IMG/VR virus record: IMGVR_UViG_3300037961_003616
Coordinates: 1 to 24,424 of that record
From: a virus
Direction: 5' to 3' (one strand)
DNA length: 24,424 bases
In this document: positions 1-7,468 of the stretch, in pieces
Numbering within the stretch: the stretch's first letter is position 1
Layout of the letters: each line of letters begins with the position of its first letter
Notes under the pieces: generated by a model
What the model saw: only the letters and a program-made list of their open reading frames with translations
Databases searched by the model: none
What the model was told of the DNA's origin: nothing
Made by a program: the position numbers and the translations under genes

Positions 1-23
1 GTTCTAGTTGTATGAACAACACT
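1..23 (+). promoter_or_regulatory. Truncated copy of the repeated promoter-hairpin element
   Basis: The first 23 bases match positions 605-627 with a single difference (C at 4 versus G at 608). They are therefore the right-hand end of the same element seen complete at 578-627. The inverted repeat GTTG-TATGAA-CAAC encloses the start codon at 12, as it does in the other copy. The conserved upstream half lies outside the window, so promoter function is inferred only from the complete copies. Confidence 0.55.
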
Positions 24-254
24 ATAAAAAACGAAATGACTTTCCGCTATGCACTTTCTGTTCTTGAGGAACAATTTGATTCCACTTATCGTGGCATTTC
101 AACTGTAAAAGAAATGACAACTGATCTCATGTCTGCTATCAGTTTTGAGGGTGAAAATCCCGAGACTGTTTATCATCGGTTTGAGACTAAAGTTGGTCCG
201 AATCGTATTGTTAAAGAGGATCAAGTTATTGCACTTGCACAACACTACGTCTGA
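12..254 (+). CDS. Small hypothetical protein (80 aa)
   Basis: An open frame of 80 codons starts at the ATG embedded in the repeated promoter-hairpin element and ends with TGA at 252-254. I do not recognise the protein. It is soluble-looking, with no membrane segment or signal peptide, and mixed charge; the stretch around residues 15-45 looks helical. There is no Shine-Dalgarno sequence before the ATG. The gene at 264 follows after 9 bases, so the two are probably co-transcribed. Its first four residues (MNNT) recur in the protein starting at 616, because both starts lie inside copies of the same DNA element, so this does not show protein homology. The start could also be an internal ATG, but the recurrence of the element favours position 12. 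Function unknown. Confidence 0.7.
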   Translation: MNNTIKNEMTFRYALSVLEEQFDSTYRGISTVKEMTTDLMSAISFEGENPETVYHRFETKVGPNRIVKEDQVIALAQHYV

Positions 255-263
255 ACATTTCTG

Positions 264-563
264 ATGAACTACACACTCAAAGAACTGCAACAAAGAGTTA
301 ATCAACTCATCGAACAACAAGGTGAAAATGCATATTGTGCCGCATGGATTTACACCAAGGATGATTGTTATGTGAGGGATTTAGATGGTGAACTTAACTA
401 TGATCTAAACGTAGATGAACCTGAAGTTGTTGAACGTATCTTCAATGATGTAGGGAACATTGATTACATCTATCAGGTGATTCAAGAGTGTGTAGATGAA
501 TCTACTGAAGAACAATATATGGCATATCAACAAGAACTGGACGAATCACCATTAGTTCAATAA
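264..563 (+). CDS. Small acidic hypothetical protein (99 aa)
   Basis: A 99-residue frame begins 9 bases after the preceding stop. The protein is strongly acidic, rich in Asp, Glu and Gln, with no Cys-pair metal motif and no membrane segment. The N-terminal part (about residues 1-20) reads as an amphipathic helix, and residues 30-70 carry several short hydrophobic strands between acidic turns. Small acidic proteins of this kind are common among phage early proteins, where some act as decoys or inhibitors of host proteins, but nothing here points to a particular target. No Shine-Dalgarno is visible, and initiation may depend on coupling to the gene before it. Function unknown. Confidence 0.75.
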   Translation: MNYTLKELQQRVNQLIEQQGENAYCAAWIYTKDDCYVRDLDGELNYDLNVDEPEVVERIFNDVGNIDYIYQVIQECVDESTEEQYMAYQQELDESPLVQ

Positions 564-577
564 CAAGAACTTTGGCG

Positions 578-627
578 CTCTTAAAAGTTACTCACCTCGA
601 AAGTGTTGTAGTTGTATGAACAACACT
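578..627 (+). promoter_or_regulatory. Repeated promoter-hairpin element, copy A
   Basis: Bases 578-607 are identical over 30 positions to 1015-1044, and a 15-base core (AAAGTTACTCACCTC) also occurs at 2302-2316. The element sits just after one gene and ends at the start of the next. Arms AGTGTTG (602-608) and CAACACT (621-627) form an inverted repeat with the ATG at 616 in the loop. A weak -10 candidate is TGTAGT (607-612); the other copies have TATAGT in the same part of the element. Transcription would then start very near the ATG. Promoter activity is inferred from repetition and position. Confidence 0.55.
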
Positions 628-792
628 CTTTTTTCCGACTCTAACCTGACTGAACTTCAGGGTTTCATGTTTGACACAATGGCATCTGCTGATATGGCAG
701 TTGATTGGTTCTGCGAACGTTTCGATGTAAGTGCTACTGATGAAGTCATTGATTTTGTCATTGATGCACACTTTGCCTTTTTCGGTGAATGA
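616..792 (+). CDS. Small acidic hypothetical protein (58 aa)
   Basis: This short frame runs from the ATG at 616, inside the repeat element, to TGA at 790-792. It encodes 58 residues, is acidic and rich in Phe and Asp, and has no recognisable domain. Two things support it as a gene. The ATG falls at the same place in the repeat element as the gene at 12. Its stop overlaps the next start in an ATGA arrangement at 789-792, typical of translational coupling. No Shine-Dalgarno precedes it, and if transcription starts where the -10-like box predicts, the mRNA would be nearly leaderless. Function unknown. Confidence 0.65.
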   Translation: MNNTLFSDSNLTELQGFMFDTMASADMAVDWFCERFDVSATDEVIDFVIDAHFAFFGE

Positions 793-1007
793 CAGATAAC
801 GTCAAAACTTATCCACTCTTTTCTGAACTTTATCAAAAAACTATGTTTCAACACAAACTACCAAACGGCAAGATTATTATGCACTCAGGATTGCCCAAAC
901 ATCTTGCTATCAAACGCACGGAAGATTACAAGCGTTGGGAACAAGAACACCGTGAAGAATTAGAGGTTTCTTCACAACAACTGTTCGATGATATGTTTGG
1001 AGGTTGA
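789..1007 (+). CDS. Small basic hypothetical protein (72 aa)
   Basis: A 72-residue frame starts inside the stop codon of the previous gene (ATGA at 789-792), so the two are probably translated together. The middle third is basic and aromatic (about residues 20-50), and the C-terminal part (about 48-70) is acidic and probably helical, ending in Gly-Gly. No membrane segment, Cys cluster or known motif is visible. It is followed after 7 bases by copy B of the repeat element, so the 616-789 pair looks like one short transcription unit. Function unknown. Confidence 0.7.
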   Translation: MTDNVKTYPLFSELYQKTMFQHKLPNGKIIMHSGLPKHLAIKRTEDYKRWEQEHREELEVSSQQLFDDMFGG

Positions 1008-1014
1008 TTTACTC

Positions 1015-1075
1015 CTCTTAAAAGTTACTCACCTCGAAAGTGTTCTTATAGTGTGAGGCACAACTCACACAACAC
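1015..1075 (+). promoter_or_regulatory. Repeated promoter-hairpin element, copy B
   Basis: The first 30 bases equal those of copy A. A good -10 box, TATAGT, lies at 1047-1052. The hexamer 17 bases upstream is GTTACT (1024-1029), which is not a standard -35. Immediately downstream is a perfect inverted repeat, GTGTGAG (1051-1057) and CTCACAC (1064-1070). An outer pair, GTGTT (1040-1044) and AACAC (1071-1075), mirrors the arm position in copies A and C. An unstructured CA-rich leader then leads to the gene at 1098. Confidence 0.6.
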
Positions 1076-1097
1076 AAACCAACTTTAATTCTCTCAA

Positions 1098-1445
1098 ATG
1101 CGTAAGATCGAAAAGCAAATGTGTCAAGCAGTTCAGTCTAACAAAGATTGGCAATCTGGTAACACTTCTGTTCACTTTGATCCTGAAACTGGTGTTTCTA
1201 TTGTTCGCCTTCATGGTAACAAAATCGCTGAGGTTTCTGATAACGACATGACTATCTTTGATGGTGGTTATCAGTCTCTCACTACAAAGTCTCGCCTTAA
1301 TGCACTTTGTGATTATTTCTGCATTGATGGTGAAGGTGTTTTCCAAAAGGATTTCACCTGGTATGTAAGAAAGTTTGTAGGTGCAATTAACGGACAATCT
1401 AAGTTCGTCACTGAAACTTTCAACAACGGTTATGTCTTTGCCTGA
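1098..1445 (+). CDS. Conserved cyanophage hypothetical protein (115 aa)
   Basis: This frame encodes 115 residues from ATG at 1098 to TGA at 1443-1445. From memory it resembles a small protein found in many cyanophage genomes: it begins MRKIEKQM, has HGNKIAEV near residue 40, then YQSLTTKSRLNAL, and ends in an aromatic segment near a QKDFTWYV motif. No function is assigned to that family that I know of. Strands alternate with basic turns and there is no membrane segment. The leader is CA-rich with no Shine-Dalgarno. Promoter copy B lies directly upstream. Recognition is by recall, not by a database search. Confidence 0.8.
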   Translation: MRKIEKQMCQAVQSNKDWQSGNTSVHFDPETGVSIVRLHGNKIAEVSDNDMTIFDGGYQSLTTKSRLNALCDYFCIDGEGVFQKDFTWYVRKFVGAINGQSKFVTETFNNGYVFA

Positions 1446-1503
1446 TGTAATCATAGAGGGGTTACTAACACTCTCCTCTCTATAATTACTTCACTTAATT
1501 AAC

Positions 1504-1555
1504 AATCTAGGCAGTACAGGATTGGGAGACTGATTCACAACGTAAGACCTAGATT
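1504..1555. other. Inverted repeat closing a 52-base intergenic segment
   Basis: Arms AATCTAGG (1504-1511) and CCTAGATT (1548-1555) are perfectly complementary over 8 bases and enclose 36 bases between two genes. As RNA this would be a closed stem with a large internal loop. It lacks the T-arm consensus and length of a tRNA, and there is no T-run, so it is not an intrinsic terminator. A TATAAT box at 1481-1486 lies upstream and could drive it or the gene at 1580. It may be a small structured RNA or a leader of that gene. Confidence 0.4.
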
Positions 1556-1579
1556 TAACTATCACTTTCTTTTCTTATT

Positions 1580-1714
1580 ATGTCTAAGGAAACTGCAATC
1601 GGTATGCTCAAAGTGGGTAACACTGGAGACGATATTCTTCGGATTCTAGATGTTATTGTTTCTGATATTGAGAGTGAGAAAACTATCAATGAGATTGCTG
1701 AAATCCTGTTCTGA
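1580..1714 (+). CDS. Small conserved hypothetical protein (44 aa)
   Basis: A 44-codon frame runs from ATG at 1580 to TGA at 1712-1714. The protein is predicted to be two helices joined by a loop: residues 1-11 and about 17-43, with a GNTGDDIL turn between. I recall similar short proteins with a G-N/S-T-G-D/E-x-I-L motif followed by a Leu/Ile-Val-rich helix in other cyanophages, but know no function. A strong intrinsic terminator begins 17 bases after the stop, which supports this being a real transcribed gene. The 5' region contains the 1504-1555 inverted repeat. Confidence 0.7.
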   Translation: MSKETAIGMLKVGNTGDDILRILDVIVSDIESEKTINEIAEILF

Positions 1715-1730
1715 TTGATAGTTACTAGAG

Positions 1731-1761
1731 AAGGGGGAAATAACACAAAATCCCCCTTTTT
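1731..1761 (+). terminator. Rho-independent terminator
   Basis: Stem arms AAGGGGGA (1731-1738) and TCCCCCTT (1751-1758) pair over 8 bases around a 12-base loop, followed by a T-run to 1761. It lies just after the 44 aa gene and closes that unit. Confidence 0.85.
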
Positions 1762-1784
1762 CTGCCCAAATATATAAAGATTGC

Positions 1785-1812
1785 CCTTTTTTTATATTAA
1801 AAAAGGTTTTTT
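1785..1812. terminator. Possible second or bidirectional terminator
   Basis: CCTTTTTT (1785-1792) and AAAAAAGG (1799-1806) pair around a 6-base loop and are followed by six T at 1807-1812. The stem is AT-rich and so weaker than the one at 1731. It is also T-rich on the opposite strand. Confidence 0.4.
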
Positions 1813-1864
1813 AAATGTATTTGAATTGTTTGTATCGCTTCTAACATTATGGTAAAGGAGTTAC

Positions 1865-1966
1865 TTAAGAGGGTATCTAAAGGGTCTTCAGAGTATCTTT
1901 GCAGTCACTTTATGTCCTCTTAAATCCTCTCAGGTCTTGTGATCTTAGCCCGCACTCTATCACAAG
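1865..1966. other. Structured gene-free stretch with two inverted repeats
   Basis: The 400 bases from 1715 to 2114 hold no convincing gene. Besides the terminators, they contain two perfect 8-bp inverted repeats: TTAAGAGG (1865-1872) with CCTCTTAA (1916-1923), closing 43 bases, and CTTGTGAT (1936-1943) with ATCACAAG (1959-1966), closing 15 bases. A 24-codon frame at 1849-1923 has no ribosome site and is not called. The paired arms make a small structured RNA or protein-binding sites plausible. Neither has a T-run. Confidence 0.4.
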
Positions 1967-2025
1967 AACGCAGAAAAGTCAAGCACCCCCGCATAAGTTT
2001 TTCAGGGACTTGACACGCAAAAAAC

Positions 2026-2086
2026 ATAAGCGTCCCTCATAAATAACCGTTGTGAGGTTGACATATAGAGACGCTTATTCTACACT
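2026..2086 (+). promoter_or_regulatory. Sigma70-type promoter with overlapping 9-bp inverted repeat
   Basis: TTGACA (2058-2063) and TACACT (2081-2086) are spaced by 17 bases, a strong vegetative-type promoter for the gene at 2115. The sequence ATAAGCGTC (2026-2034) pairs perfectly with GACGCTTAT (2070-2078), and the right arm lies inside the promoter spacer, as an operator would. A shorter pair, CCTCA (2035-2039) and TGAGG (2053-2057), is nested within. Regulation by a bound protein is inferred. Confidence 0.7.
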
Positions 2087-2114
2087 GTAAAAGCATCACA
2101 CCACTCGGAGAATT

Positions 2115-2288
2115 ATGCCCACTATCTACCAACAGGCACAGAAGCAACGTTATCGCATCACCTTGGATATTGAGGCACTGGGAGATTTTGACCCCCATAA
2201 TATCAACTGGGAAAGGTTGTTTGAACTCGAAGGTTCTGAGCGTTGTGATGCTTATGTGGAGGACCTAAGTACACCTGACACTTGGTGA
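2115..2288 (+). CDS. Small hypothetical protein (57 aa)
   Basis: A 57-codon frame runs from ATG at 2115 to TGA at 2286-2288. It has the best Shine-Dalgarno of the early block: GGAG at 2107-2110, four bases before the ATG. It also has a clear sigma70-type promoter upstream (-10 at 2081-2086). The N-terminal 20 residues are basic and polar, then a hydrophobic, acidic C-terminal half includes NINWERLFEL and ends in Trp. No domain is recognised. Copy C of the repeat element starts about 12 bases after the stop, so this gene may be transcribed alone or read through into the gene at 2356. Confidence 0.7.
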   Translation: MPTIYQQAQKQRYRITLDIEALGDFDPHNINWERLFELEGSERCDAYVEDLSTPDTW

Positions 2289-2300
2289 TTACATAGGGTT

Positions 2301-2343
2301 CAAAGTTACTCACCTCCAAAGCGTTCTTATAGTATAGGAACGC
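2301..2343 (+). promoter_or_regulatory. Repeated promoter-hairpin element, copy C
   Basis: The core AAAGTTACTCACCTC (2302-2316) equals copies A and B, and TATAGT at 2328-2333 has the same spacing from GTTACT as in copy B. Arms GCGTTC (2321-2326) and GAACGC (2338-2343) form an inverted repeat at the place where copies A and B have different but also complementary arms. An SD-less CA-rich leader follows, to the gene at 2356. Confidence 0.6.
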
Positions 2344-2355
2344 AATCAACCAACA

Positions 2356-2691
2356 ATGACCACCAAATCCCTCGACAATCTTCTGGAGATTTCTAACACT
2401 CTCGAAGCACAAGGTAAGAAGGTCAGTGTTAAGGTTCTCAAGACACGTGGACCCCGTAAAGGTGAAACAATGCAGCGCAATTCACAGCACGGTCGTGGTT
2501 ATGCTCTGGGTAACATTGGCGCTGGTGATTGTCAATTAGCGTCTCATGCTGTTGGTGGTGGTAAAGGACAAACCATCACTAAAGTTACTGGGTTGGGTAA
2601 AGAAATGGTGTCAAATCTTTCTGAGGTTCGGCGTCGTTATGCAGCACAGATTAAAGCAGATCGTAAGGCAGCAGCATTGGACCGTCGTTGA
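2356..2691 (+). CDS. Basic hypothetical protein (111 aa)
   Basis: A 111-residue frame runs from ATG at 2356 to TGA at 2689-2691 and ends just before an intrinsic terminator. The protein is strongly basic. Residues 1-20 are probably helical, and 21-40 contain Lys/Arg clusters (VKVLKTRGPRKGE). Residues 40-75 are Gly-rich with polar patches, and the last 30 residues form a highly basic Ala/Arg/Lys helix. This composition fits a nucleic-acid-binding protein, but there is no zinc site or helix-turn-helix I can name, so that role is inference. It is driven by promoter-hairpin copy C and has no Shine-Dalgarno. Many CGT codons give it a more host-like look than the AT-rich structural genes. Confidence 0.75.
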   Translation: MTTKSLDNLLEISNTLEAQGKKVSVKVLKTRGPRKGETMQRNSQHGRGYALGNIGAGDCQLASHAVGGGKGQTITKVTGLGKEMVSNLSEVRRRYAAQIKADRKAAALDRR

Positions 2692-2698
2692 TACTTAG

Positions 2699-2732
2699 AG
2701 GGGGCACGGTGGTTGACACTTTGTCCCCTTTT
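2699..2732 (+). terminator. Intrinsic terminator with an internal promoter
   Basis: AGGGGGCA (2699-2706) pairs with TGTCCCCT (2722-2729), with one G-T wobble, and is followed by TTTT. The loop contains TTGACA, the -35 box of the next promoter, so one unit ends and another may begin within the same 45 bases. Confidence 0.65.
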
Positions 2733-2742
2733 ATGCTATTAT
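2713..2742 (+). promoter_or_regulatory. Sigma70-type promoter
   Basis: TTGACA (2713-2718) and TATTAT (2737-2742) are separated by 18 bases. Its nearest good downstream gene is at 2951, about 200 bases away, leaving a long leader. A 28-codon frame begins at 2749, about where transcription should start. Confidence 0.6.
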
Positions 2743-2780
2743 GGCAGTATGCGTGTTCGGCAGTTATTGTGCCCTTATGT

Positions 2781-2813
2781 GTTAACGGGCGGGGCGCGTA
2801 ACGGGGGGCGTTA
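2781..2813. other. G-rich pocket with small repeats
   Basis: This stretch has G-runs of 3, 4 and 6 in otherwise AT-rich DNA. Similar units starting TAACGG occur at 2783 and 2799, and TAACG (2799-2803) pairs with CGTTA (2809-2813) across five G. The rest of 2743-2950 shows AT-rich sequence with no clear gene. Confidence 0.45.
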
Positions 2814-2950
2814 TAAAAATCGCATAAGTCCCTAACCTACACTGTATGTCTTTTGCGAGCTCTATATCACTCTCATAAAAAAATTCCGGCAGATATAAAA
2901 ACGCCTGTAAGGTTCGCTATATAAGAAAAAATTTTCCCCATAAAAAATCT

Positions 2951-3148
2951 ATGAAAAAGGAAAAAGTATATCACATCTATGCAAAGGAAGAATGTATATA
3001 CAATAATTTGACAGAGAAAGAATTTGAGAAGACGTGGCAATCATTAAAGGGTATGGTTGGACTTATGAAGACTGATTATACAGAAGAGGATATTAGTTAT
3101 GAAGTATGTGAGGTGAACCGAACTTCAACGGTAGACACTAGTCATTGA
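2951..3148 (+). CDS. Small conserved cyanophage hypothetical protein (65 aa)
   Basis: A 65-codon frame runs from ATG at 2951 to TGA at 3146-3148. From memory it resembles a short protein in several cyanomyoviruses that begins MKKEKVYHIYAKEECI and has a helical LTEKEFEKTW segment and a GLMKTDYTEEDISYE tail. Its function is not known to me. It is highly charged, with an N-terminal beta strand pair followed by one long helix, and no membrane segment. The stop codon overlaps the TTGACA box of the next promoter. No good ribosome site is visible, and the upstream 20 bases are very AT-rich. Confidence 0.75.
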   Translation: MKKEKVYHIYAKEECIYNNLTEKEFEKTWQSLKGMVGLMKTDYTEEDISYEVCEVNRTSTVDTSH

Positions 3149-3173
3149 CAACGGATAGATAGCACAGTATAAT
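3145..3173 (+). promoter_or_regulatory. Perfect consensus sigma70 promoter
   Basis: TTGACA (3145-3150), 17 bases, then TATAAT (3168-3173): both hexamers and the spacing are the exact consensus. Transcription would start near 3180, about 15 bases before the glycosyltransferase start. The -35 box shares bases with the stop codon of the preceding gene. Confidence 0.85.
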
Positions 3174-3194
3174 TGAATTGAGTTTCTAAGACTT

Positions 3195-3962
3195 ATGGCA
3201 AAAGGATTTACAGTTAAAGCAGCAGCACCAAAGAAGAAAGCAGAAGATTGGGATATTGCTGCAATTAAGGAAAGGATGCGAGGAAAGCAGATTGTATTCT
3301 GTCTACCTGGACGTGGGTGTTCTTTTACGTTTCTGAAGAACTTTGTACAACTGTGCTTTGATATGGTACAGAATGGTATGGGTATTCAGATTAGTCAAGA
3401 CTATTCGTCTATGGTTAACTTTGCACGTTGTAAGGTACTTGGAGCGAATGTATTGCGTGGACCGAATCAGATTCCATGGGATGGTAAGTTGAATTATGAT
3501 TATCAATTGTGGATTGATAGTGATATTGTATTTGACACGAATAAGTTTTGGCAGTTGTGTGACTTAGCATTGAATGCAGAAGGTGAAGAGAAAGAGATTG
3601 TAAGTGGTTGGTATGCAACTGAAGATGGACATACAACGAGTGTTGCACATTGGTTAGAGGAGGATGATTTCCGTAAGAATGGTGGAGTGATGAACCACGA
3701 GACTGTGGAATCAATTCAGAAGCGGCGGAAGCCTTTCACTGTAGATTACACAGGTTTTGGGTGGGTGCTCATTAAGAAGGGAGTCTTTGAGAATCTTGAG
3801 TATCCTTGGTTTGCACCGAAGATGCAAGTCTTTGAATCTGGTGCAGTACAAGATATGTGTGGAGAGGATGTCTCATTCTGTCTTGATGCAATTGAAAAGA
3901 ACTTCAAGATTTGGTGCGATCCTCGGATTCGTGTTGGACATGAAAAGACTCGTGTGATTTGA
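3195..3962 (+). CDS. Putative glycosyltransferase (family 2-like fold)
   Basis: This gene encodes 255 residues with features of a GT-A type glycosyltransferase, an enzyme that moves a sugar from a nucleotide-sugar to an acceptor in the cytoplasm. Residues 31-40 (KQIVFCLPGR) form the first strand. WIDSDIVF at 106-113 carries the Asp-x-Asp (108-110) expected to hold the metal and sugar nucleotide. GED at 223-225 precedes a helix, and a late His (249) follows strand WCDPRIRVGH, the usual order in such enzymes. The N-terminal 18 residues are basic and probably disordered. The donor and acceptor cannot be read from sequence; candidates are phage DNA bases, virion proteins or host surface glycans. 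It starts an operon-like run, with the next gene 3 bases after its stop, under a perfect promoter. Similar genes lie near baseplate genes in other cyanophages (recall). Confidence 0.72.
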   Translation: MAKGFTVKAAAPKKKAEDWDIAAIKERMRGKQIVFCLPGRGCSFTFLKNFVQLCFDMVQNGMGIQISQDYSSMVNFARCKVLGANVLRGPNQIPWDGKLNYDYQLWIDSDIVFDTNKFWQLCDLALNAEGEEKEIVSGWYATEDGHTTSVAHWLEEDDFRKNGGVMNHETVESIQKRRKPFTVDYTGFGWVLIKKGVFENLEYPWFAPKMQVFESGAVQDMCGEDVSFCLDAIEKNFKIWCDPRIRVGHEKTRVI

Positions 3963-3965
3963 CCC

Positions 3966-4139
3966 ATGTATAACATCTTATGCAATGGACGTAAGATACA
4001 TGAGAATCTCAGTGCTGAAGAATGTGCTGAGATTCTTGACGATTATGCTCAGAAGTATTATGATAATACTGATGACACCATCAAACCCGACCAATATAAA
4101 ATTGAGGTAATTGAAAATGGCAATGATGAAGCAGGGTAA
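3966..4139 (+). CDS. Small conserved cyanophage hypothetical protein (57 aa)
   Basis: A 57-codon frame begins 3 bases after the glycosyltransferase stop and ends with TAA at 4137-4139, overlapping the next gene. The protein opens MYNILCNGRKIHENLSAEEC, continues as an acidic helix (AEILDDYAQKYYD) and ends in an acidic tail. I recall short proteins with the same CNG-x-x-I-H-x-NLSAEEC start beside this glycosyltransferase in other cyanophages; their role is unknown. The tight spacing implies co-translation. It might be a partner of the glycosyltransferase, but only position suggests that. Confidence 0.75.
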   Translation: MYNILCNGRKIHENLSAEECAEILDDYAQKYYDNTDDTIKPDQYKIEVIENGNDEAG

Positions 4140-4251
4140 TTATATTCCCGGGAAACCGAAAAAGACGCGGCAGGGTAATTCGCAGAACACTCTACTTGCA
4201 GCAACGAGTCGTAATAAGAAAAAGAAGCGTTATCGTGGGCAAGGTAAATAA
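4117..4251 (+). CDS. Very basic 44 aa conserved cyanophage protein
   Basis: A 44-codon frame starts at ATG 4117 and overlaps the end of the preceding gene by 23 bases in another frame. It is extremely basic: MAMMKQGNYIPGKPKK at the start and a Lys/Arg run near residues 34-44, rich in Gly, Asn and Gln and with almost no acidic residues. From recall, a close version (GNY-x-PGKPK, QGNSQNT, RGQG) is found in many cyanomyoviruses, with no function known to me. Its composition is that of a disordered nucleic-acid or ribosome binder. The later in-frame ATGs at residues 3 and 4 are alternative starts. Confidence 0.75.
   Translation: MAMMKQGNYIPGKPKKTRQGNSQNTLLAATSRNKKKKRYRGQGK
4243..4251 (+). promoter_or_regulatory. 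Weak late-promoter-like box
   Basis: GGTAAATAA resembles the T4 late box TATAAATA in its last six bases. It overlaps the stop of the 44 aa gene, 18-22 bases before the gene at 4273. The match is less good than the boxes at 5122 and 19441. Confidence 0.35.
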
Positions 4252-4272
4252 ACATAGCGAAAACAATTATGA

Positions 4273-4965
4273 ATGGCTTGTTTAATTACGAACTTACCAT
4301 CAGTTGAAGTCTGGGTAAGAAAAGAATATCTCACTGACCATCAAAGTGGTCATGGTGAATTTGTAAAGGGCGTTTGGGTATCGTGTAAATCGATGCCTGG
4401 ACGTGCTTTTTATTTTGAGACATACTTACCAGAATATGCTGCAATGTATGATAAATTACCGATTAGTGCCTTTGTAACTGATCCTGAGACACCAAGTCCT
4501 GATATGAATCTACCAAATCTACAGTTTTGGAATTGTATGGACTATGGTGTGGTAAGTATTGACAAGAAATTCATTGGTAGTATGGACTTTGAGGTCTATA
4601 CAAGAGACTATGGTAATATGAAAGGTACATATGTATGTACAATTGACAATTATCATCATGATCCAGACTATGTTGACTATGCAACAAGTGAAAATCCTGC
4701 TGAACATAAGTCACATAACCTAATTGAACTTGAAAATGGGCAATATGCACTCTATCCAAACAATAGAATGCGTATCTATGATAACAGTTTGACTCCTGTT
4801 GAACCAAAAATGCCGGATTTTAAGGTCTCAACCCAATATTACCAAGTTGAAAACGGTTTTGAGCGTCTTGGAATGGGTCGTGAGGACGAATATTTCTGGA
4901 AAACATCAAAAGAACGCCAAAAATTAGAAGAAAACGCCACTGAGGAGCAAAATGGGCAACGCTAA
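4273..4965 (+). CDS. Conserved cyanophage hypothetical protein (230 aa)
   Basis: A 230-residue protein that I recognise from memory as a family conserved across marine cyanomyoviruses next to the gp25-gp6 baseplate genes. Conserved-looking blocks are LITNLPSVEVWVRKEYL near the start, GVWVSCKSMPGRAFYFETYL at about 34-53, LQFWNCMDYGVVSI at about 83-96, LYPNNRMRIYD near 160, and PDFKVSTQYYQVENG at about 181-195. The fold appears mostly beta and there is no membrane segment. Position suggests a virion or assembly role, but none is established that I know of. An out-of-frame ATG four bases earlier (4269) opens only a 12-codon frame, so 4273 is preferred. No clear Shine-Dalgarno. Confidence 0.82.
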   Translation: MACLITNLPSVEVWVRKEYLTDHQSGHGEFVKGVWVSCKSMPGRAFYFETYLPEYAAMYDKLPISAFVTDPETPSPDMNLPNLQFWNCMDYGVVSIDKKFIGSMDFEVYTRDYGNMKGTYVCTIDNYHHDPDYVDYATSENPAEHKSHNLIELENGQYALYPNNRMRIYDNSLTPVEPKMPDFKVSTQYYQVENGFERLGMGREDEYFWKTSKERQKLEENATEEQNGQR

Positions 4966-5153: not shown

Positions 5154-5555
5154 ATGCCTGTCGAAAGGGTAAGTAAAGGTTTTAGGGATATTGGGAGTGC
5201 TTTTCAGGTAAGTCCACTGTCTAATGATCTTCTTGCAATCAAAAATGAGACTGCAATCGCAAGATCAGTCAGAAATCTTGTATTTACTCTTCCAGGCGAA
5301 AGGTTTTTTAACGAAGACCTTGGTTCTAGGATATCAAGATCACTTTTTGAGAACATTGATACCATTTCTGCATCTTTAATTGAAGATGAAATCAGAAATA
5401 CCATTGATAATTTTGAACCAAGAGTTGAATTGATTAATGTAGTCGTTGCTCCAAACTATGAGGACAACGAATTTAATGTGACGATTAGTTATAATATTGT
5501 TGGTGTTGATGCTTTACAACAACAATTATCATTCGCATTACAACAGACACGATAA
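5154..5555 (+). CDS. 25: Baseplate wedge subunit gp25
   Basis: At 133 residues the protein is almost the length of T4 gp25 (132 aa). It belongs to the GPW/gp25 family, which in contractile machines (phage tails, T6SS TssE) helps bind the inner baseplate to the sheath. The hallmark segment is at about residues 38-65: SVRNLVFTLPGERFFNEDLG, followed by a helix (ISRSLFENI). The C-terminal half alternates strands and ends with a Gln-rich tail. It follows the late-promoter box and overlaps gp6 by one base (TAATG). No strong Shine-Dalgarno is present. An out-of-frame ATG at 5137 was considered and dismissed. Confidence 0.93.
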   Translation: MPVERVSKGFRDIGSAFQVSPLSNDLLAIKNETAIARSVRNLVFTLPGERFFNEDLGSRISRSLFENIDTISASLIEDEIRNTIDNFEPRVELINVVVAPNYEDNEFNVTISYNIVGVDALQQQLSFALQQTR

Positions 5556-7468
5556 TGCCGTTAGTCAATTTCACAAATCTGGATTTTGATCAGATAAAAA
5601 CTTCTATTAAGAGTTATCTTCGATCAAACTCAAACTTTACTGACTATGATTTTGAAGGTTCTAACCTTTCAACAATAGTTGATGTATTGGCGTATAATAC
5701 ATATATTTCCTCATACAATGCTAACATGGTTAGCAATGAGGTTTTTGTTGATAGTGCAACGTTAAGAGAGAACGTTGTTTCTTTAGCACGTAATATTGGA
5801 TACGTTCCTAGGTCAAGAACAGCAGCAAGATCTGCAATTACGTTTACTGTTGATACTACAGACTTCGCTACCAATCCAACTGCAATCACCCTTAAGAAGG
5901 GCGTAGTTGCCTCTACAAGCGCGTTTGGAGGGGATAGTTATACATTTGCCATACCAGAAGACATTACGGTTCCTGTCGTCGATGGAGTAGCAACTTTCGA
6001 CAGTATTGATATTTTTGAGGGAGAATTTTTAGTTGATAACTTTACAGTAGAAGCAGAAAATCCTGCACCTCCACAAAAATATATTTTAAGCAATCCACAT
6101 ATTGATACTTCCACTTTAAGAGTTTTAGTTAGAGATACTGAGTCGAGTACAACCAGCAGAAACTTTTTACTATCAGATAGTCTCTTTGAAGTCACGGGAG
6201 ACTCAAGAGTTTATTTCATCCAAGAAATAGAAGATCAAAGATATGAATTGATTTTTGGTGATGGTATTTTTGGCGAAAAATTAGAAGAGTTGAGTTTTAT
6301 TGAAGTTTCATATATTAGAACATCTGGTGAAGAAGCAAACGGATTATCAAACTTTAGTTTCAGTGGAATACTTGTAGACAATAATAATGTTTCTGTTGCA
6401 GATGGTATTTCATTAATTACTACAATTACTGCGTCAGAAAGTGGAAAGGAAATTGAGTCTGTAGATTCTGTTAAGAACTATGCGACTAAAATTTATGCAT
6501 CTCAAAATAGAGCAGTCACTGCTGCAGATTATGAAGCATTAATTCCAAAAATCTATCCCGAGACACAATCCGTCTCTGTATTTGGTGGAGAAACGCTATC
6601 TCCTCCACAATTCGGAAAAGTTTTTATTACTATCAAACCATTCTTTGGTCCATTCGTGCCAAATTCAATCAAAGACAATTTAAAAAATCTTTTAAGAAGA
6701 TATAGTGTTGCTGGTATTGTTCCAGAAATATTAGATCTTAAGTATTTGTATGTTGAAACTAACTCAACTGTCTATTATAACGAAAATTTAGCACCAGGAT
6801 CGGACTTTGTTAAGTCTATTGTTTCTACTAACGTTGATAATTATTCCAATTCTACTGAGTTGAATAAGTATGGTGCAAGATTTAAGTATAGTAGATTCCA
6901 AAATATTATTGATAATAGTCATGAATCTATTACCTCTAATATTACTACAGTGCAGATTAGAAGAGATATGAAGGTAAGGCTAAGTCAATTAGCGAATTAT
7001 GAAATCTGCTTCGGAAATGAGTTCTATATAAAGAGACTTGACGGATATAATATTAAAAGTTCTGGATTTAGAATATTTGGAGTCGATGATGTTGTATATC
7101 TTGGCGATGTTCCAAATCAAGATCAAGTAACTGGAGAAATTTTCTTATTTAAATTAAATTCTCCAACTCGACCAGGAATAGTAAGAAGGTCTGTAGGGAC
7201 AATTAATTATGAAAAGGGTGAAATATTATTAGATAATATTAATATTGTTTCGACCTCTAAAACGGTTCAGAGACAACCAATTATCGAAATCTCTGCTTGC
7301 CCAAGATCGAATGACGTGATCGGATTGCAAGACTTATATCTCCAATTAAACACTAGCAATAGTGTGTTAAATATGTTAAGCGATGAAGTTGCTTCTGGTG
7401 CGGATCCATCAGGAACTACGTATATAACGACCTCAAGCTACACAAACGGAAACTTAGTACGTTCATAA
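5555..7468 (+). CDS. 6: Baseplate wedge subunit gp6
   Basis: A 637-residue protein, close to T4 gp6 (660 aa), the wedge subunit whose dimers form the continuous inner ring of the baseplate and which works with gp25 and gp53. The N-terminus has the family pattern: NFTNLDFDQIKTSIKSYL (residues 5-22), then DYDFEGSNLSTIVDVLAYNT (about 30-49), and a helix leading to ARNIGYVPRS. A middle block FGDGIFGEKL (about 234) and an AADYEALIPKIYP segment near residue 330 also match the gp6/J-like baseplate superfamily. Start and stop are tightly packed: TAATG with gp25, and 3 bases to the next gene. AT-rich codon use matches the rest of the virion block. Confidence 0.93.
   Translation: MPLVNFTNLDFDQIKTSIKSYLRSNSNFTDYDFEGSNLSTIVDVLAYNTYISSYNANMVSNEVFVDSATLRENVVSLARNIGYVPRSRTAARSAITFTVDTTDFATNPTAITLKKGVVASTSAFGGDSYTFAIPEDITVPVVDGVATFDSIDIFEGEFLVDNFTVEAENPAPPQKYILSNPHIDTSTLRVLVRDTESSTTSRNFLLSDSLFEVTGDSRVYFIQEIEDQRYELIFGDGIFGEKLEELSFIEVSYIRTSGEEANGLSNFSFSGILVDNNNVSVADGISLITTITASESGKEIESVDSVKNYATKIYASQNRAVTAADYEALIPKIYPETQSVSVFGGETLSPPQFGKVFITIKPFFGPFVPNSIKDNLKNLLRRYSVAGIVPEILDLKYLYVETNSTVYYNENLAPGSDFVKSIVSTNVDNYSNSTELNKYGARFKYSRFQNIIDNSHESITSNITTVQIRRDMKVRLSQLANYEICFGNEFYIKRLDGYNIKSSGFRIFGVDDVVYLGDVPNQDQVTGEIFLFKLNSPTRPGIVRRSVGTINYEKGEILLDNINIVSTSKTVQRQPIIEISACPRSNDVIGLQDLYLQLNTSNSVLNMLSDEVASGADPSGTTYITTSSYTNGNLVRS

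Follow-up and report, generated by a model that had tools for sequence, protein, structure and literature searches.

A repeated promoter-like element of T4-like cyanophages whose box is near-constant in each phage and differs between phages

Introduction

The function of the early genes of T4-like cyanophages is mostly unknown, and hardly anything is known about how these genes are switched on. A stretch of viral DNA of 24,424 nt, hereafter called the window (bases 1–24,424 of a virus record 24,717 bases long), has a short element repeated in front of small genes. The first-pass annotation had described this element as a promoter ending in an inverted repeat, the arms of which change in sequence and stay complementary to each other. 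Here we ask which part of this repeat is conserved in the phages that carry it, and what might recognise it.

Results

Copies of the element in the window

The isolates nearest to the window are T4-like cyanophages, with Bellamy and S-SM2 at the top. A run of small genes occupies positions 1–4,965 and is closed by the baseplate genes gp25/gp6 (5154–7468); in SynMITS9220M01 also, the element is in a small-gene region that ends at the baseplate genes. The three full copies and one partial copy that had been described are all present (Table 1), with boxes at 587, 1024 and 2305 and the fourth clipped by the contig start; base 1 of the window is also base 1 of the contig, which is why the copy at position 1 has no upstream half. 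The pattern AAGTTACTCACCTCSAAAGYGTT has three matches in the window and none in 100 shuffles. The upstream halves are near-identical, as had been stated: the 30 bases of 578–607 and those of 1015–1044 are the same, and a core of 15 bases, AAAGTTACTCACCTC, recurs at 2302–2316. All the quoted arms are also in place. The inverted repeats were said to occupy the same relative place, and this is true of copies 585 and 2303, which share a common register, but not of the outer stem of copy 1022.

The ATG embedded in copy 585, at 616, opens the ORF 616–792, while copy 1022 precedes the ORF 1098–1445 (Kyano_Gp96) and copy 2303 precedes the ORF 2356–2691. Host-like promoters, in which TTGACA is combined with TACACT, TATTAT and TATAAT, were observed at 2058, 2713 and 3145. 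These sit between the cassettes or just downstream of them, and are compatible with a middle-gene class.

Table 1. Positions of the repeat copies and of their inverted repeats in the window
Feature	Position	Strand	Description	Measure
Partial fourth copy	1–23	+	Downstream part (−10 region, embedded ATG at 12)	96% identity to 605–627
Full copy 585	580–623	+	A/T tract; box GTTACTCACCTC at 587–598; −10-like TTGTAT at 612–617	
Full copy 1022	1017–1060	+	Box at 1024–1035; −10-like TAGTGT at 1049–1054	
Full copy 2303	2298–2341	+	Box GTTACTCACCTC at 2305–2316; −10-like TAGTAT at 2330–2335	
Inverted repeat of copy 585	602–627	+	AGTGTTG/CAACACT (602–608/621–627); register as in copy 2303; unconserved in the family	
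Inverted repeat of copy 2303	2321–2344	+	GCGTTC/GAACGC (2321–2326/2339–2344), spanning the −10; unconserved in the family	
5′-leader hairpin of copy 1022	1051–1070	+	GTGTGAG/CTCACAC (1051–1057/1064–1070); resembles the gene-specific covarying kind	−8.0 kcal/mol, z −4.0

The element belongs to a family with very many copies in T4-like cyanophages

An exact search of viral contigs with a 14-base core returned at least 119 stretches, several of which hold 5–9 copies per 10 kb. The profile of the core gave at least 443 copies, compared with none in reversed sequence, and a box-blind profile gave at least 969 copies (866 distinct), compared with 4 in reversed DNA; the contigs are partly redundant, and the copy totals from both collections are lower bounds. 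The element belongs to a family that is very abundant in these phages. Complete or near-complete genomes have 11–14 copies each, on a single strand and inside one block of 14–18 kb. We observed 11–12 copies in SynMITS9220M01 (all plus, 36.3–50.0 kb), 14 in G004 (all minus, 45.5–60.9 kb) and 14 in G001 (44.1–62.3 kb), every one of the latter with ACTTGGATCCTC. In the annotated genomes, the copy blocks lie upstream of the baseplate genes. The T4 gp23 capsid gene was found in G002 to G005 and in G008, where the length of the record suffices, and was not found in the record of G001, the same phage as G002. These two records carry identical cassettes in opposite orientation and are evidently one phage, one record being 79 kb longer. 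Syn9 gave zero copies with the box-independent profile, and the box itself gave no promoter match there. De novo counting of 16-mers in the isolates returned mainly coding low complexity, but revealed the S-SM2 repeat.

Two other origins were considered. A host regulon site was rejected on a single exact scan covering 84,980 genomes of prokaryotes, which returned 3 unrelated matches and no cyanobacterium among them. A mobile element was also rejected: the cassette keeps to orthologous genes, and the flanks are unrelated between copies.

The conserved anatomy is promoter-like

We built a logo from 252 dereplicated copies, setting position 0 at the first A of AAGTTACTCACCTC. Its upstream part has two A/T tracts, AAnTT (−16 to −12) and, eleven bases further on, AATTAA (−5 to 0), a spacing like that of UP elements. 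They are followed by the near-invariant box GTTACTCACCTC at 2–13, AAAGTG at 15–20 and TAGTRTRA at 27–34, with no conservation past about position 46. In the last motif T27 (89%), A28 (84%) and T32 (90%) are conserved together with T30, and the hexamer has the conserved T-12, A-11 and T-7 of a sigma-70 −10 element. The −35 hexamer TTGACA, looked for at 16–18 bp, is absent from that place in all the box types. The distance from the box to the −10 is fixed in 209 of the 252 copies. The leader downstream is poor in G (41% A, 33% C and 5% G), and this composition, along with a conserved CA at 36–37, is consistent with a start ∼7 bp past the −10. If TAGTRT is the −10, the predicted transcription start would be at ∼37–39, which would place the box at about −35 to −24. 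Judged from its phased A/T tracts, box and −10, the logo reads as promoter-like, in agreement with the first-pass annotation, which had proposed a repeated promoter element before many small cyanophage genes that overlaps the −10 and sometimes the start codon. The cassette genes are probably early in timing.

Where a copy has no embedded ATG, the median distance between the box and the gene start is 50 bases. About half of the copies, that at 616 in the window for example, have an ATG at 31–33, within the −10 itself (TATGA). In 389 of 409 cases this ATG shares its frame with a long ORF (the other frames account for 4 and 13), and A31 together with G33 was observed 422 times against 286 expected under independence. 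A second in-frame ATG, close to the ordinary start position, follows 4–9 codons on in 222 of 400 cases. A large share of the embedded-ATG genes are without a second nearby ATG, and therefore need transcripts starting further upstream; read-through from a neighbouring promoter would be the simplest account of such transcripts. Where the second ATG is missing, the embedded start codon is hard to square with a start site at 37–39. A leaderless start at the embedded ATG is disfavoured, since the −10 would then land on GTCC/GGAC. A Shine-Dalgarno-like tetramer is present in 4 of 320 short leaders. The box sequence TCACCTCC (587–599 in the window) is identical to what we take to be the anti-Shine-Dalgarno tail of 16S rRNA, and this is probably a coincidence because it is absent from the other box types.

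The hairpin of the repeat is mostly incidental

The covarying arms had been interpreted as a conserved hairpin or cruciform. In 511 dereplicated copies, however, the arms pair no better than reshuffled ones, and further copies with non-complementary arms were found, the very outcome that the first-pass annotation had named as refuting its interpretation. Stems of ≥5 bp are present in 75 of 235 copies after filtering (77 of 252 before), whereas permutation gave a mean of 59 when any right arm was allowed and of 73 when the right arms came from copies with the same left spacer. In register 59, which is common to copies 585 and 2303, we counted 31 stems of ≥5 bp against 28.9 expected, and no register of the 511 copies rose above permutation in a manner that would back a conserved stem. 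Because permuted arms pair nearly as well, the excess of pairing arises mostly from the composition of the consensus, which has GTG on the left and is rich in C/A on the right.

A hairpin or cruciform at the transcription start, kept by compensatory change and acting as a regulon-wide switch, would fit the observations that the arms are 5–7 bp long in each of the three full copies of the window, that the inverted repeat of copy 2303 folds strongly as a naked strand (z −4.3), and that complementarity is commoner near the start (75 of 235 copies) than further downstream (23 of 235). However, in the leaders of ordinary copies a 5′ stem occurs in 0.3%, against about 6–7% of shuffled leaders, so that stems are depleted there, and the hairpin is not kept among orthologues of the same gene. 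We therefore regard such a switch as highly improbable, and conclude that the hairpin of the repeat is mostly incidental.

A minority of the copies behave differently. Those with long leaders have a 5′ stem in 14%, compared with 7% when shuffled. In the MTFYWKF and KIAQVK-type genes the arms are GTGGGGA/TCCCCAC, GGGAGGA/TCCTCCC, GTGAGGA/TTCTCAC and GGGGCA/TGCCCC, some pairs being changed on both sides, where the compensatory pairs were read by eye in a small sample. Hairpins right at the start of long leaders, compensatory between phages, were also seen in L116, L192, L193, L112 and L158. Only the 1051–1070 hairpin of the window resembles this real class of minority, gene-specific 5′ hairpins with compensatory changes. 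As a guess, leader hairpins of this kind might shield the mRNA at its 5′ end.

The box is uniform within a phage and differs between phages

Among contigs chosen regardless of their box, two boxes differ on average at 1.2 of 12 positions within a contig and at 6.4 of 12 between contigs, whereas the outer flanks have random-level similarity both within and between contigs. We then grouped the genes by protein similarity: the boxes of different genes in the same contig differ by 1.16, those of the same gene in different contigs by 6.22 and those of different genes in different contigs by 6.26. The box thus goes with the phage rather than with the gene: across contigs, same-gene boxes are no more alike than boxes of unrelated genes.

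Aligned orthologous copies with flanks of ≥95% identity nearly always have the same box. Boxes differing at ≥4 positions make up 30% of the pairs when the flanks are 90–95% identical, and 62% when they are 85–90% identical. L089 and L141 exemplify such a swap (GTTACTCACCTC vs AACTGGGCCCCT), and L172 and L177 are a second example; S-SM2 has the same downstream half with yet another box, AAGGGGGGTCGCC. A scan by the downstream half revealed many further boxes in the identical place. There were 46 consensus boxes among 159 listed loci. These fall into roughly 14 classes with differing conserved footprints, such as GTTACTCACC, ACTGGGCCC, GGGGCCTT, AAGGGGGGACG and ACTTGGATCCTC, and type-dependent footprints of this sort are as would be expected of different binding specificities.

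The uniformity has exceptions: in ∼40% of the contigs with ≥4 copies, one copy or more falls outside the main class; such copies are mostly near variants, and some are clearly foreign. In L231, ten GGGCCC copies are accompanied by one GTTACTCACC. More generally, L150, L231, L156, L186 and L011 combine one box type with a lone copy of a different one, as if a cassette had come in from elsewhere. Among the 114 families of the early block we found no gene whose variation tracks the box (median rho −0.03).

Discussion

We consider it probable, on the strength of the sequence patterns, that these elements are the early promoters of a large T4-like cyanophage group and that they are read by a fast-evolving, phage-specific putative factor. 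In this model, the phased, UP-like A/T tracts and the TAGTRT −10 hexamer would position the host RNA polymerase, and the box of 10–13 bp at about −35 to −24 would replace the usual −35 and be recognised by a phage-specific DNA-binding factor. About a dozen cassettes of one block would fire together, and box and reader would change jointly; such joint change would explain why the boxes agree in one phage and differ at the same genes in its relatives. The putative factor, its source and its sign are all inferred, and an activator appears the likelier sign because no −35 consensus is left.

The main rival to an activator is a stoperator-like repressor, for which the box would be the operator: a phage-specific early repressor would stop the early promoters and silence superinfecting phages of the same type, and escape from exclusion would drive the diversity. 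To our knowledge, neither a repressor nor lysogeny is known for the phages with the element. Cluster A mycobacteriophages have stoperators, 20–30 dispersed sites of 13 bp that all point the same way and whose consensus is particular to the phage; they are mostly away from promoters, and both consensus and repressor vary between immunity groups (PMC6550527). The element is likewise dispersed, in one orientation and phage-specific in consensus, and an operator would account for the very fast divergence among close relatives. However, every copy of the element is part of a promoter and has one fixed spacing, whereas most stoperators lie away from promoters (PMC6550527); an unaided polymerase would be left without a −35 consensus whatever the box; and these phages are regarded as lytic, with no repressor candidate found in the early block. 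An operator seems to us unlikely.

It is also conceivable that there is no trans-acting reader, and that a near-neutral box is homogenised in each genome by recombination, through concerted evolution or PeSL-like shuffling. T4-like phages recombine strongly, homogeneity declines with the distance from the box, and cassettes do move, since L150, L231 and L156 carry single foreign-box copies. Nevertheless, the edges of the uniformity are sharp and type-dependent, the flanks show no uniformity, and the box is nearly invariant within a phage, more so than the adjacent −10, which is unexpected of a neutral stretch. We consequently give recombination without a reader a low probability, and prefer a phage-specific factor.

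The element may be compared with several known systems. The study of Syn9 by Doron et al. in 2016 reportedly described a repeated non-host element before the early genes and host-like promoters at the middle genes. The likeness lies in a repeated element before T4-like cyanophage early genes, and in the TTGACA/TATAAT-type promoters that the window also has. The Syn9 genome sequence, however, is without the present element. At orthologous early genes, Syn9 (L126–L129), Bellamy (L123) and S-SKS1 (L136) have another promoter module, AAGGTGGCACA ... GTGTATTCTATAAGAGTC.

In T4 middle promoters, the MotA box also stands upstream of the −10 as an activator box in place of the −35. As far as we know, its sequence is unrelated to the boxes described here. 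Cyanophages are without motA/asiA and T4-like middle promoters (PMC5780444).

PeSL cassettes (promoter-early stem-loops; Arbiol 2010 and Comeau 2014, as cited in PMC4503421) are short early promoters scattered among the small variable genes of T4-type phages. Dispersed promoters in hyperplastic regions, which here would be early by inference, are common to both. A stem-loop terminator of the PeSL type was found in 16 of 393 upstream stretches, compared with 9.2 in shuffles, and with no clear excess of terminators the element was not classed as a PeSL cassette with a linked terminator. We know of no phage-specific box as a part of PeSLs.

Since the box is uniform per genome and swapped between relatives with ∼90% identical flanks, it would offer a simple sequence label for specificity groups, and the question of what reads the early promoters becomes an ordinary matter of DNA pull-down and RNA-seq. 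It is possible, though short of an even chance in our estimate, that T4-like cyanophages comprise dozens of promoter specificity groups, in each of which about a dozen early boxes are rewritten jointly with a fast-evolving reader of their own. If so, the early genes would answer solely to their own factor, and the box type would gate how marine phages exchange genes, co-infect and exclude one another.

Finally, a dispersed repeat unrelated to the element, CTCACTAAGTAACACTCAC, occurs in ∼20 loose copies between the small genes of S-SKS1 (L136, 5000–8300).
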